DNA from: Dawidia soli
GTDB lineage: Bacteria > Bacteroidota > Bacteroidia > Cytophagales > Cyclobacteriaceae
Assembly (NCBI RefSeq): GCF_018598185.1
Contig: NZ_JAHESC010000010.1
Span: 62,001-126,000 of the forward strand
Reading direction: 5' to 3'
DNA: 64,000 nucleotides
Shown: piece after piece, positions 32,373 to 38,492 of the stretch
Numbering within the stretch: position 1 is the first letter of the stretch
How the letters are laid out: the number at the start of each line of letters is the position of its first letter
Made by a program: the position numbers and the translations under genes
Notes under the pieces: generated by a model
Databases searched by the model: none
Told to the model about the DNA's origin: nothing
Seen by the model: the letters and a program-made list of their open reading frames with translations, nothing else

Positions 32373-33857
32373 ATGGGATGTTCCTGTGGAACCAAGAGCA
32401 AGGACGGCAAAGTCGCCGGCTGCCAGAACAACGGCGCCTGCGAGACCGGCGGCTGTAATAAGATGAATGTATTTGACTGGCTGTCGAACATGGACATGCC
32501 GGTAGAAGATAAATTTGCGATCGTCGAAGTACGCTTCAAGAACGGCCGTAAGGAGTTCTTTCGCAATGTTGACAAACTGCTGCTGACCACCGGCGACGCC
32601 GTGGTCGTAGAAGTTCCCAACGGCCACCACATCGGCCATGTATCGCTGCAGGGCGAGCTGGTGCGGTTGCAGATGCAAAAGAAGAAGATCGCCAACGACG
32701 GCGAGATCAAAAAGATATACCGCCTGGCCCACCAGAAGGACCTCGAGAAATTCGAAGAGGTAAAAAAACGCGAGCTGCCTACCCTGTATCGTACGCGCGA
32801 GATCATTCGCGACCTGAAACTGGAAATGAAACTGTCGGATATTGAATACCAGGCCGACAACATCAAGGCTACGTTCTTTTATTCGGCCGACGACCGCGTT
32901 GACTTTCGCGAGCTGATCAAAATACTGGCCGGCGAGTTTAAGATCCGCGTGGAGATGCGGCAGATCAGCCTGCGCCAGGAAGCGGGCCGCCTCGGCGGCA
33001 TCGGTGTCTGCGGCCGCGAGCTGTGCTGCTCGACGTGGCTGAGCGATTTCAAGAACGTGGCGACCAGCGCCGCGCGCTATCAAAACCTGTCACTGAACCC
33101 CAGCAAGCTTTCCGGGCAGTGCGGACGCCTGAAGTGCTGTCTGAACTACGAGTTGGAAACCTATATGGACGCGCTGGAAGATATACCCAAGATCGAAGCG
33201 CCGCTGCTGACCGAGAAGGGCGAAGCCACGCTGCAGAAGACGGATATCTTCCGCAAGATCATGTGGTTTGGCTTCAAGGAAGAAAATACCTGGTACCCGC
33301 TCAACATCGAGCGCGTGAACCACATCCTGCGGATGAACCGCGAGGGCAAACGCCCTGCGACACTGGACATCGACATAGTCGAGGAGAAGGTGACCACCGG
33401 GCCGCTGAACAGCGACCTGGACCAGATGGACAAGAAGTTCAAGAACAAGTCGCGCAACAAGAAGAAAAAGAAGAAACCCCACGGCGGTGGTCACGGAGGC
33501 GGAAATGCCAACGCTCAGGCTGCAGGTGCCGAAGGTACAGCACCAGCGAAAGAAGTGCACAATGCGCCGGGCGACCAGGCGCACGTCGGAGGGCGGCCGC
33601 AACAGCAACAACGAAATACGGGCGGCGGTGGCAACAGACAGCAGCAGAATAATCCGCAGAACCGTCAGGGCCAGGGTCAGAATCGTGGTAACCGCGAGCA
33701 GCGTGGCGGTGGTGGCGGCGAAGGTGGTGGCGGCAACCGCGAAGGGCGGAACCGAAACCGTAACCGTGGAAATCGCGACAACCGCGGTGGCGGTCAAAAC
33801 CGTGAGAACCGCGGCGAAAGAGATGGTCAAACGCCCAAACCCGAGAATCCGCAATGA
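32373..33857 (+). CDS. ricT: RicT-like PSP1-domain iron-sulfur protein with long low-complexity tail
   Basis: This 494-residue protein has a Cys-rich start (MGCSCG, CQNNGACETGGC). A PSP1 domain covers about 90-180 and contains EVKKRELPTLYRTREI. The conserved Cys pairs lie in CGRELCCSTWL and CGRLKCCLNYE. In B. subtilis RicT (YaaT) joins RicA and RicF in a [4Fe-4S] complex that affects RNA maturation. The last 140 residues are unusual: a Lys-rich patch, then Gly/Asn/Gln/Arg repeats with several RGG and RNRGNR motifs, suggesting RNA contact or phase behaviour. The gldH start overlaps the stop by 4 bp. Confidence 0.88.
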   Translation: MGCSCGTKSKDGKVAGCQNNGACETGGCNKMNVFDWLSNMDMPVEDKFAIVEVRFKNGRKEFFRNVDKLLLTTGDAVVVEVPNGHHIGHVSLQGELVRLQMQKKKIANDGEIKKIYRLAHQKDLEKFEEVKKRELPTLYRTREIIRDLKLEMKLSDIEYQADNIKATFFYSADDRVDFRELIKILAGEFKIRVEMRQISLRQEAGRLGGIGVCGRELCCSTWLSDFKNVATSAARYQNLSLNPSKLSGQCGRLKCCLNYELETYMDALEDIPKIEAPLLTEKGEATLQKTDIFRKIMWFGFKEENTWYPLNIERVNHILRMNREGKRPATLDIDIVEEKVTTGPLNSDLDQMDKKFKNKSRNKKKKKKPHGGGHGGGNANAQAAGAEGTAPAKEVHNAPGDQAHVGGRPQQQQRNTGGGGNRQQQNNPQNRQGQGQNRGNREQRGGGGGEGGGGNREGRNRNRNRGNRDNRGGGQNRENRGERDGQTPKPENPQ

Positions 33858-34342
33858 GCGTGAGAGCTGTATGGATGATCGTTGCAGGACTGCTGGTGGT
33901 GGCCTGTGGTGACGATAACCGCGTTTATGAAAAGTATGTAGACTTTGAGGACCGTCACTGGCTCGTGTCGGAGAAGCCGGAATTTGAATTTGATATACAC
34001 GATCCGCAGGCGCGGTATGATATTATCGGAAACATCCGGAATGAAGTGTCATACCCGTGGTCGAGGATCTTTATTACGTATTATCTACAGGACTCTACGG
34101 GCACACAGCTGCATAAGAACTTGCTCGGCAATTATTTGTTCGACGCCAAGTCGGGCAAGCCCCTGGGGACCAGCGGGCTGGGGGATATTTATGATCACCA
34201 GTTGGTGCTGCTCAGTAACTATCAGTTTCCCAAGGCTGGAAGGTATACGGTCAGGCTCGAGCAATTTATGCGGAAGGATACACTCGACGGGGTGTTGGCC
34301 GTGGGACTGCGCGTAGAGAAGATTGTGCCAGGGGAACAGTAA
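33854..34342 (+). CDS. gldH: Gliding motility lipoprotein GldH
   Basis: This 162-residue lipoprotein has an N-terminal hydrophobic stretch and lipobox ending VVAC (Cys18). The GldH-like features are VYEKYVDFEDRHWLVSEKPE, YDIIGNIRNEVSYPWSRIFI and GTSGLGDIYDHQLVLLSNYQ. GldH is needed for gliding in Flavobacterium johnsoniae and is linked to the type IX secretion system. Its pairing with the PSP1 gene is a recurrent Bacteroidota arrangement. Translation is coupled to the upstream gene through ATGA. Confidence 0.9.
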   Translation: MSVRAVWMIVAGLLVVACGDDNRVYEKYVDFEDRHWLVSEKPEFEFDIHDPQARYDIIGNIRNEVSYPWSRIFITYYLQDSTGTQLHKNLLGNYLFDAKSGKPLGTSGLGDIYDHQLVLLSNYQFPKAGRYTVRLEQFMRKDTLDGVLAVGLRVEKIVPGEQ

Positions 34343-34435: not shown

Positions 34436-35665
34436 CTAAGCCACAGCCTGCTCTGTCTTCACAGCCGAAGCCACCGGCGTGAAAGTAGCCTGTTGCGCCA
34501 GGATAATCCCCACGCCATCCTGCTGCGACCACTCACGCAGCTTCGAGAGGCGTACCTGGCCGACCATGTATTGCTTGCCGCTGGCGGCGTAGCCCGACTG
34601 GAACTGCTCGAAATCCTGGATGGAGATCTTGATCGAGTCGTCGAAGCTTACGTGCGCGTCTACGATCAGGTCGTTCGAGAACTCGAAGCGATCGGCCTGG
34701 TGGAATTTTTTATACTCGTAAGCGTAGTCGTAGGACAGGGCGGAGATATCGGACAATACGGCTGACCCGGTGGGATAGCTGCCGGCGCCTTTGCCGATGA
34801 ACAGCTGTTTTTCAGCAAACGCTCCTTGTACCTGTACGGCGTTGTATTCGTTCCGCACCGAGGCGAGCGGGTTAGTGGCTTCTACGAATTGGGGTGCTAC
34901 AAAACCGTATACTTTGTCCTGGATGCGGAAAGAGCGGGCGATGAGTTTGATGAAGTAACCGTTGTCGCGGGCGAACTTCAGGTCCTGGTCGGAGATCTTG
35001 TCGATGCCGATATTGATCACGTCTTCGGGGTTCACAAACAGACCGAAGGTATGGGCAATGGCAATGACCAGTTTATACTTGGGATCGTAGCCTTTTACGT
35101 CGAGGCTCGGGTCGCTTTCGGCAAAGCCCAGCTCCTGCGCTTTCTTCAGCGCGTCGGCGTAGCTCTTCTTTTCTTCAAATACCTTGGTGAGTATGTAGTT
35201 GGTGGAGCCGTTGAAGATGCCTTCGATGCTGTTGAGCAGATCGTTGTCATAATATTCTTCGAGGTTGCGCAGAATGGGGATACTGCCACACACGGCTCCT
35301 TCGTACAATACCGGCAGACCGGTTTGTTGCTGCAGGGTATAGATCTCCTGCAGGTGTTCGGCCAGCATTCTTTTGTTCGCGGTGATGACGGCTTTGCCGT
35401 TGAGGAGGGCGGTCTTTACAATTTCGTAAGCAGCACGGGCGTCATCGATGAGCTCGACGACCACGTCGATCTCGGGGTTGTTAAGGATCTCGTCTTTGTC
35501 GAAGGTAAAGAAGTTGTCGTTTACGGGACGTTCTTTGGTTTTATTCTTAACGCAAACCTTTTTGATCTCGGCTTGTACGCTGCCGTGCGTTTCGTTCAGT
35601 ACGTGATAGAGTCCTTGTCCCACACATCCGAATCCAAACAGACCTAACTTAAGTTTCTTTCTCAT
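34436..35665 (-). CDS. hom: Homoserine dehydrogenase
   Basis: This 409-residue enzyme makes homoserine from aspartate semialdehyde. It has a Rossmann start (KLGLFGFGCVGQGLYHVL), VVVELIDD, TANKRMLAEH, the active-site region YEGAVCGSIPILRNL and GIFNGSTNYIL, and AQELGFAESDPSLDVKGYD. The C-terminal 80 residues look like a small regulatory (ACT-like) domain. It is the last gene of the metY-metX-hom run and overlaps metX by 4 bp. It should therefore come under the SAM riboswitch and leader upstream of metY. Confidence 0.95.
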   Translation of the reverse strand: MRKKLKLGLFGFGCVGQGLYHVLNETHGSVQAEIKKVCVKNKTKERPVNDNFFTFDKDEILNNPEIDVVVELIDDARAAYEIVKTALLNGKAVITANKRMLAEHLQEIYTLQQQTGLPVLYEGAVCGSIPILRNLEEYYDNDLLNSIEGIFNGSTNYILTKVFEEKKSYADALKKAQELGFAESDPSLDVKGYDPKYKLVIAIAHTFGLFVNPEDVINIGIDKISDQDLKFARDNGYFIKLIARSFRIQDKVYGFVAPQFVEATNPLASVRNEYNAVQVQGAFAEKQLFIGKGAGSYPTGSAVLSDISALSYDYAYEYKKFHQADRFEFSNDLIVDAHVSFDDSIKISIQDFEQFQSGYAASGKQYMVGQVRLSKLREWSQQDGVGIILAQQATFTPVASAVKTEQAVA

Positions 35666-36708
35666 GATAATACCGTGCTTAATTGCTTTTGCTGATAAAA
35701 GTGTTTTATGACTGAATCCAATTGTTCGAACTCCACCAGGAAGCCGTCGTGTCCATAGAGCGAGGTGAGCTCGATGTACGTGGCGCCCGGAATATTAGCG
35801 GCCAGGAATTTTTGCTCGTGCACCGGGAAGAGGATATCGGTGTCGATGCCGACCACAAGGGTTCTGGCCCGGACGGTCTGCAATGCGGCCTCGATGCTTT
35901 CGCGCGTACGGCCGACGTTGTGGCTGTCCATCATTTTTGACAGTGTATAGTAGGAAAAGGCATTAAAGCGGTTCACGAGCTTCTCGCCCTGGTACCGTTG
36001 GTAGGTGGCGGCGCGGAAGTCGTCGAGCTTGTCGTGGTCCTTTTCGATCTGAGTCTGGTTGAATGTTTCGTAATAACGATAGGAGAGCATGCCGATGGCG
36101 CGCGCGGCCTTGAGGCCCTGGGCACCGGCGTGCGGTTCATTCTCTTTCCACGTAGGGTCGGCTTCGATCGACAGGCGTTGTGCTTCGTTGAAGGCGATGC
36201 CCCAGGGCGAATGCGCGGCATTTGTCGCCAGCGCGATAAAATGTTTAAAGACGCCGGGTTGCTGAATGGCCCACTCCAGCGCTTGTTGTCCGCCGAGAGA
36301 GCCGCCCAGGAGCGTATGGATGCTATCGATCTGGAGCTCTTGACGCAGCAGGTCAAAGGCCCGCACGGTATCGCGGTTTGTCAGCTTCGGGAAGGCGTGA
36401 TAGAACGGCTTGCCCGTTTCAGGGTTGATGGACAGCGGACCGGTAGAACCGTAGCAGCCGCCGAGCATGTTGGCGCAGATGATGAAGTAATGGTTGGGAT
36501 CAAACGCGCTGCCTTCGCGAAACAGATCGCCCCACCAGTCGGTGAAGTCGGAGCTGCCGGTTAGCGCGTGACAAACCCAGACGATGTTGGAACGATCGTG
36601 GTTGAGCTTCCCCAGGGTAGTATACCGCAGTTGAAAACCGGGCAGTACGCCGCCGGCTTCGAGCGGGAAGGGATGCTGGTGGTGGAATGTATGATCGTGT
36701 TTTTGCAT
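35662..36708 (-). CDS. metX: Homoserine O-acetyltransferase
   Basis: This 348-residue alpha/beta-hydrolase enzyme acetylates homoserine with acetyl-CoA. It has the HALTGSSDFTDWWG segment, the nucleophile elbow LGGSLGGQQALEW (Ser137), the acid in VGIDTDILFPVHEQ and the catalytic His in LYGHDGFLVE. It sits between metY (77 bp upstream) and hom (4-bp overlap). The three encoded steps are consecutive: homoserine, O-acetylhomoserine, homocysteine. Confidence 0.96.
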   Translation of the reverse strand: MQKHDHTFHHQHPFPLEAGGVLPGFQLRYTTLGKLNHDRSNIVWVCHALTGSSDFTDWWGDLFREGSAFDPNHYFIICANMLGGCYGSTGPLSINPETGKPFYHAFPKLTNRDTVRAFDLLRQELQIDSIHTLLGGSLGGQQALEWAIQQPGVFKHFIALATNAAHSPWGIAFNEAQRLSIEADPTWKENEPHAGAQGLKAARAIGMLSYRYYETFNQTQIEKDHDKLDDFRAATYQRYQGEKLVNRFNAFSYYTLSKMMDSHNVGRTRESIEAALQTVRARTLVVGIDTDILFPVHEQKFLAANIPGATYIELTSLYGHDGFLVEFEQLDSVIKHFYQQKQLSTVLS

Positions 36709-36785: not shown

Positions 36786-38120
<1,335 letters not shown>

Positions 38121-38231
38121 TTATTCAGTGAAAAATGATTTGTCGGATGTTGTCAGACGTGGACGTAGCCGTAACCATACCTGTCACCGGGTAGATCGTG
38201 CGCTAGTGTGTTGCTGATGGGCGATGCGCTA

Positions 38232-38372
38232 TTAGCAACGGCACATACAACAACAGGCGTTGTTGCACATACAACAAATAATGGAACTGAATAAAACGGA
38301 GGCGTAAGCACGCGGACCCTGCAAAGGGGCCGATCCTGGGAAGATGGTGTTGATGATGCTTTTCATTTTCAT
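38232..38372 (-). CDS. Cys/Met-rich leader peptide upstream of metY (46 codons)
   Basis: The frame starts ATG AAA ATG right after the last base of the riboswitch P1 helix and stops at tandem TAA TAG. The first 32 residues are ordinary. The last fourteen are CCMCNNACCCMCRC, eight Cys and two Met. Inside the Cys codons, CAACAAC and GTTGTTG form a 7-bp hairpin (38248-38265). GTTGCT at the stop codon can pair with AGCAAC 18 nt further on (38210-38239). There is no poly-U terminator before metY. The codon content and position are those of an attenuation leader for the sulfur operon. The function is inferred. Confidence 0.7.
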   Translation of the reverse strand: MKMKSIINTIFPGSAPLQGPRAYASVLFSSIICCMCNNACCCMCRC

Positions 38373-38492
38373 CGTTTTATATTTCCCGGTCTGGACCATC
38401 CAGGCCGGAGTCAGGATTTAGCACCTTTTCCCTGTTGGGAGTGGTTGCTAGCGCTTCTCAGAGCCTGTCTCTCCGCGCTTCTTTATAAATCG
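38373..38492 (-). promoter_or_regulatory. SAM-I (S-box) riboswitch
   Basis: Minus-strand RNA shows the S-box core. It has a P1 5' arm (CGATTTATA), the P2 segment GCGCGGAGAGACAGGCTCTG closing with GAAGCGC, then GCTAGCAACC. A P3 follows, then the invariant GGTGCTAAATCC, a strong P4 (CCGGCCTGGA/TCCAGACCGG), and a P1 3' arm (TATAAAACG) that pairs with the 5' arm. Such aptamers bind S-adenosylmethionine and switch off methionine genes. Here the 3' arm of P1 directly precedes the leader-peptide ATG, so SAM binding could hide its ribosome site. No terminator hairpin follows. Confidence 0.92.

Follow-up and report, generated by a model that had tools for sequence, protein, structure and literature searches.

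A SAM-I riboswitch joined to a cysteine- and methionine-codon leader ORF: a probable two-input regulatory leader for metY-metX-hom in Bacteroidota

In Dawidia soli, the metY, metX and hom genes are preceded by a SAM-I riboswitch aptamer and, immediately downstream of it, by a short leader ORF that ends in clusters of cysteine and methionine codons. Comparison with related loci indicates that this arrangement is real, far from chance and a widespread variant of leader-peptide control, and that the Cys and Met codons of the leader are under selection as codons. We suggest that the element is quite probably a two-input regulatory leader for metY-metX-hom: Translation of the leader would be gated by SAM, ribosome pausing at the Cys and Met codons would favour metY, and a Rho-type output seems likeliest. 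One transcript would then very probably read two sulfur signals at once. Judged from its sequence, the element would work like a riboswitch-gated leader-peptide attenuator, with an aptamer that the covariance model assigns to SAM-I. A two-input sulfur sensor had already been proposed in an initial annotation of this DNA; the comparative evidence strongly supports this core idea, while the initial interpretation as a whole is supported in part. Few amino-acid leader peptides are, to our knowledge, known from Bacteroidota. The literature searched, with most subscription journals outside it, contained no description of the combination of SAM-I with a Cys/Met leader, and the joined element ahead of metY appears to be undescribed.

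The window, i.e. the whole 64-kb stretch of DNA analysed, stems from a Cytophagales genome (G000, 7.5 Mb) that is close to Parachryseolinea silvisoli; the MetY protein of locus L144 is 96% identical. The leader, metY, metX and hom all lie in this order on the minus strand, which the initial annotation had left unstated. The features are the following:

38374..38491, minus strand: SAM-I (S-box) riboswitch aptamer RF00162 (cmscan, 68.8 bits)
38364..38383, minus strand: A-rich leader initiation region, with the P1 3' arm of the aptamer as its upstream part (base profile of 126 leader starts)
38232..38372, minus strand: leader ORF, 46 codons plus TAA as written (sequence)
38286..38297, minus strand: GTTTTATTCAGT within the leader, perfectly complementary over 12 bases to metY positions -21 to -10, candidate metY mask in this genus only
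38235..38276, minus strand: putative Cys/Met regulatory codons CC M C NNA CCC M C R C (sequence and positional enrichment in 143 homologous ORFs)
38210..38215, minus strand: anti-Cys segment AGCAAC, the complement of GTTGCT in the last Cys codons (conservation within the Chryseolinea-type clade; complementarity z)
38166..38205, minus strand: clade-specific hairpin TAGC..(ACC..GTGACAGGT)..GGCTA between leader and metY (covariation, 23 sequences)
38118..38129, minus strand: ACTGAATAAAAC, A-rich metY initiation region, candidate partner of 38286-38297 (complementarity)
36786..38108, minus strand: metY, O-acetylhomoserine sulfhydrylase (PF01053; domain match), start at 38108
35662..36708, minus strand: metX, homoserine acetyltransferase (alpha/beta hydrolase PF00561; assigned by context)
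34436..35665, minus strand: hom, homoserine dehydrogenase (PF00742, PF03447; domain matches)

The aptamer is the sole Rfam match within the window. It covers the complete model (1-108) and scores well above the gathering score of 44.4 bits, and this bears out the SAM-I assignment made initially. The 46-codon frame, MKMKSIINTIFPGSAPLQGPRAYASVLFSSIICCMCNNACCCMCRC, runs from the ATG at 38372..38370 to the TAA at 38234..38232, which is directly followed by TAG, and its C-terminus is ICCMCNNACCCMCRC. Thus, the frame and the tandem stops are as first described, but P1 and ATG do not abut directly: aptamer and ORF share the strand, and a single base (38373) separates the P1 end given by Rfam (38374) from the first ATG. 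Moreover, the true start is more likely the second in-frame ATG (38366..38364), six bases past the first, which gives 44 codons; we prefer it because its spacing (9-12 nt past the P1 motif) and N-terminus match those of the homologues (MKKII.., MKNFI..). The Cys and Met codons form two clusters and run up to the stop codon. Both hairpins that had been noted initially are found in the sequence, TTGTTG..CAACAA within the run of Cys codons and GTTGCT..AGCAAC spanning the stop codon. Downstream of hom, a gene for a GldH gliding lipoprotein (PF14109; window positions 33854-34342) follows closely on the other strand.

For the comparative analysis, regions upstream of metY were gathered by family, phylum and named-genome searches. 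The first set, mostly from Cytophagales, Sphingobacteriaceae, Chitinophagaceae and Saprospiraceae, comprised 154 distinct metY loci with a recognisable SAM-I core, in which P1 ends were placed by motif, with an Rfam check on a subset. An ORF begins 0-30 nt past the P1 motif, typically 9-12 nt, in 143 of these loci, and 126 of the 143 ORFs have at least two Cys codons among their last 15. The conserved short frame with a C-terminal Cys cluster that the initial annotation had suggested looking for is thus present, and the Cys/Met cluster is kept while the rest of the leader drifts, so that the proposal withstood the refuting comparison named there. The ORFs have a median of 39 codons, and their stop lies a median of 114 nt ahead of metY. 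At the three final positions, 53-61% of the codons are for cysteine, as compared to about 1% farther from the stop than position -20, and the N-terminal part is not enriched in Cys or Met. The enrichment is specific to the reading frame: in the last 15 codons, Cys accounts for 30% in frame as compared to 9% and 3% in the other two frames, and Met for 9% in frame versus 1% out of frame. The related loci contain 649 Cys codons in these positions, as opposed to a mean of 114 and a maximum of 140 after base shuffling; since the loci share ancestry, p-values from shuffling overstate their independence. Both Cys codons are in use (432 TGT, 269 TGC). At the Cys sites of 23 close pairs, 97 positions were the same, 20 had synonymous and 33 non-synonymous substitutions, counts that are too coarse to use. 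The leaders vary from 13 to 63 codons and their tails from CCC to CCCCCCC with free order of M and C. The leader of P. silvisoli ends, as in the window, with ICCMCNNACCCMCRC; other tails before the stop are MRMCMCCCC (Marivirga sericea), CICMCCCC (Mucilaginibacter oryzae), NCMCCCIL (Pedobacter foliorum) and MCCCCCC (Cesiribacter andamanensis).

Some loci depart from this pattern. In the Cyclobacteriaceae-type loci L074, L076, L084, L122, L136, L168, L198 and L203, the ORF past P1 is kept and the Cys codons are mostly or all lost; in several of these Cys-poor leaders the stop is merely 10-50 nt before metY. In L048, L065, L075, L090, L092, L096, L114, L132 and L156, the stop is about 550-700 nt away from metY instead of the usual 110 or so, gaps that resemble the insertion of a small gene or element.

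The leader is associated with metY. By a strict count in related genomes, 11 of 18 SAM-I leaders of metY carry it, as compared to none of about 35 ahead of metH, metX, hom or a shorter cystathionine-synthase-like (CGS-like) gene (Fisher p ~4e-7, with gene classes taken from N-terminal sequences rather than profile searches). In many metH SAM-I leaders (L024-L032), an ATG within the 3' arm of P1 (GATGAGC) opens a short frame, MSERVFSF.. and similar, that is devoid of a Cys cluster.

How might SAM act on the leader? The base profile of the 126 leader starts has A at -3, -6 and -12 to -14, the same as metY starts. This context is Kozak-like at -3/-6 and fits the published rules for Flavobacterium johnsoniae, from which the use of A-rich upstream sequence for initiation in Bacteroidota is known (PMC6847099). 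The leader is a short ORF with a Bacteroidota-type start context upstream of metY-metX-hom, and the 3' arm of P1 covers about -20 to -11 of its start. The idea, put forward initially, that SAM binding hides the ribosome site of the leader fits this anatomy, its sole support, in that P1 lies over the A-rich initiation region: With SAM bound, P1 would be closed, the initiation region hidden and the leader left untranslated, and at low SAM the leader would be translated.

If charged tRNA-Cys or tRNA-Met is scarce, the translating ribosomes would pause at the C-terminal Cys/Met codons, the selection on which is evident from the comparison, and a paused ribosome would favour metY expression, so that low SAM together with low cysteine would give the strongest expression. 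The sign, i.e. that cysteine shortage means ON, is borrowed from relatives of another class that have a textbook attenuator on the same codons (see below). The physical link to metY is the least certain part of this mechanism. No poly-U terminator was found between the leader and metY at the window locus, in agreement with the initial annotation, and among 114 leader-ORF loci of the window's type, weak candidates for intrinsic terminators occurred in 23 as compared to 11 expected, with none conserved. An intrinsic terminator was therefore rejected as the general mechanism of this type, which lacks the U-run terminator and antiterminator of classical trp/his-type attenuators. A strong SAM terminator was present in nine of ten tested leaders that have no adjacent ORF, and the tenth (L110) has an ORF at +35; SAM terminators and adjacent leader ORFs thus seem to exclude each other. 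Most likely, Rho would terminate transcription within the leader and the gap, which are rich in C and poor in G, and translation of the leader with ribosome pausing would relieve this termination; exposure of the metY start possibly helps in this genus. Rho sites are biased to C over G. The C/G ratio is 1.67 in the leader versus 1.0 in gene starts, 1.70 in the gap, above the controls, and 1.43 versus 1.07 in the 150 nt upstream of metY, a bias that is compatible with Rho and would also be expected of any unstructured RNA. For the phylum as a whole, we lean towards the view that such composite leaders, in which a riboswitch gates an amino-acid-sensing peptide, form an AND gate on metY that responds to low SAM plus low Cys/Met.

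No downstream structure common to all loci of the window's type was found; complementarity to the Cys codons is strong only in one clade. In this clade, of the Chryseolinea type, the leader stop is followed by an anti-Cys segment (GCAACA) and by a hairpin with covariation. In a trimmed alignment of 23 sequences, 88.8% of the cells of this hairpin are paired, with 18 double-change cells; none of 500 shuffles reached its covariation score, and slid controls were far lower with at most 38% paired, though the hairpin had been named by hand after inspection of these same 23 sequences. RNAalifold over the whole gap between leader and metY, where the alignment is poor, found almost nothing.

The SAM and Cys/Met inputs seem to be combined in at least three arrangements in Bacteroidota: (i) In the window's type, SAM-I is joined to the Cys leader without a conserved terminator. 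(ii) In Chitinophagales, SAM-I is mostly followed by a strong terminator (AAGCTCATCTGA..TTTTTT) and then by a separate Cys leader that ends with CCxxMP before the stop (e.g. ..CCMP), about 90-150 nt before metY (L169, L174, L178, L182, L219). In most of these, the UAA stop lies within the GUAA loop of the hairpin TATGCC-GTAA-GGCATA. L166 and L188 have the CCxxMP leader without SAM-I. Other Cys leaders that had seemed to lack any SAM-I were mostly misses of the strict core pattern, and the candidate class was dropped: Rfam finds the riboswitch in L099, L107, L160, L161, L196, L209 and L182. (iii) Families f23 and f24, which belong to another class of the phylum, have a Cys/Met leader (e.g. MKFSTQYTANKPACRCMCMCKSHT) with a strong intrinsic terminator behind it. 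In f23, SAM-I lies downstream of this attenuator, and three fully read loci have a second terminator-like stem before metY. The attenuator precedes SAM-I and metY in L291, L298, L300, L309, L311-L317 and L319-L322, and it is present without SAM-I in L289 and L327; a scan found no Cys/Met leader in 6 of 20 further f23/f24 regions. In 17 of 17 leaders of this type, an antiterminator segment that overlaps or directly adjoins the leader stop (-12 to +16) can pair with the 5' arm of the terminator (mean -14.1 kcal/mol versus -6.4 kcal/mol for shuffled sequences). A ribosome that finishes the leader would cover this segment and let the terminator form, whereas one paused upstream would leave it free and allow read-through. 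From this anatomy, Cys/Met shortage would mean read-through, with starvation stalling as the ON signal.

The same inputs could also act on translation. Besides Rho, the initial annotation had named metY initiation as one possible route, and within this genus a mask is indeed predicted: Pairing of leader segment 38286-38297 with the metY initiation region 38118-38129 would be broken once a ribosome pauses on the first Cys cluster, which would free metY as in erm-type translational attenuation. The helix comprises a perfect 12 bp in the window. Two relatives have 9 bp at the same positions but with an unrelated sequence, and three others have 6-9 bp whose sequence is of the window's type; L038, of the same genus, has no good helix. 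With the first Cys codon occupied, the predicted opening of the translation initiation region (TIR) of metY rises from 0.42 to 0.64 in L035 and from 0.31 to 0.59 in L036, but just from 0.53 to 0.59 in the window itself. Across 114 loci, masking is absent (mean z +0.15, mean change of TIR accessibility +0.017), and a general mask was rejected beyond this genus. Because it is not general, masking cannot account for the conservation of the Cys codons across families, and we regard it as an unlikely main output, though one to be kept in mind for this genus. An opposite sign on the same anatomy is less probable still. By established biochemistry, MetY consumes sulfide directly, in competition with cysteine synthesis, so pausing at Cys codons might lower metY and spare sulfide for CysK when cysteine is short, and the leaders indeed go with metY rather than with metH, metX or the CGS-like gene. 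However, the antiterminator overlaps the stop in all 17 classical attenuators, where an upstream pause would let transcription continue, and a SAM-Cys leader ahead of a nitrite/sulfite reductase gene (L381, one genome) fits induction by sulfur shortage.

That the codons serve something other than regulation by pausing is very improbable for both forms of this idea. A functional small protein that binds metal or takes part in redox reactions could explain a widely conserved ORF with a Cys/Met-rich tail, yet neither the unconserved N-terminus nor the variable length and composition of the tails suits such a protein, and the ORF is mostly directly upstream of metY and in one class embedded in a terminator/antiterminator. 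Equally improbable is that RNA pairing (UGUUGU with ACAACA) maintains the TGT/TGC runs: The anti-Cys segments and hairpins of the Chryseolinea clade and the hairpin across the CCMP stop in Chitinophagales would agree with it, but the enrichment depends on the reading frame and does not extend past the stop codon, Met is enriched too, and TGT and TGC are both used. The frame specificity led us to reject pairing as the only origin of the Cys codons.

The SAM-gated, pausing-dependent leader that we favour shares parts with several known systems. Polycysteine leader ORFs precede mycobacterial cys operons (PMC1262725, 2005; Canestrari 2020, Mol Microbiol, as cited in PMC13236596). They too have Cys codons beside the stop of a short ORF, no obvious terminator and a suggested role for Rho, and they respond to cysteine, as the window's leader would; they differ in phylum and genes (cys operons, cbs), are leaderless, lack a riboswitch and have no Met codons described. 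The uORFC-8-2 leader of cysS in Rhodobacterales also has tandem Cys codons in an uORF with proposed ribosome-mediated attenuation, but it has an intrinsic terminator, two Cys codons only and no riboswitch (PMC8632094). SAM-I riboswitches have long been known in Bacteroidetes, and those with an initiation signal in the 3' strand of P1 belong to the same aptamer class; they hide the RBS of the regulated gene, whereas P1 in the window covers the start of a putative amino-acid-sensing leader peptide without a Shine-Dalgarno sequence (PMC2258182). Translational control by a SAM riboswitch at a distance would be shared with metA of Sinorhizobium, which however has SAM-II and no amino-acid-sensing peptide (PMC9373788). 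Two signals are integrated in one leader by tandem riboswitches and by the tandem attenuators of Salmonella mgtCBR, although the latter use two leader ORFs for different signals and have no metabolite aptamer that gates a leader peptide (PMC3641672). Control by leader attenuation has also been proposed for the amino-acid operons of Flavobacterium (PMC9723704).

If our interpretation is true, the immediate target of the aptamer would be a codon-reading peptide, which makes a natural two-signal gate: SAM would report the end-product state, and the Cys/Met codons would report the sulfur amino-acid pool. That MetY takes sulfide directly suggests why the cysteine status would matter. The three wirings of the same inputs would be a natural experiment on the evolution of RNA logic, and the element would show in a concrete case how a riboswitch exerts control where translation starts without Shine-Dalgarno sequences, as it does in this phylum.

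The SAM-Cys leader is also found ahead of other genes. In this genus it precedes a gene for a PhyH-like dioxygenase (L334, L336, L337, L343). In L329 it precedes one for an unassigned protein; in L381, SAM-I is followed by a leader ending with ACCCCCCC and then by the nitrite/sulfite reductase gene. An exact-pattern search for TGYTGYTGYTRR across the window genome itself gave matches swamped by other reading frames. This genome nevertheless has a second SAM-I with a leader ending ..DRCCC before the stop (G000:C93:235-440; L002, L254). Downstream of it lie a PhyH-like gene that appears to be broken, an ATP-grasp-like gene and a gene for a SAM hydroxide adenosyltransferase domain protein.
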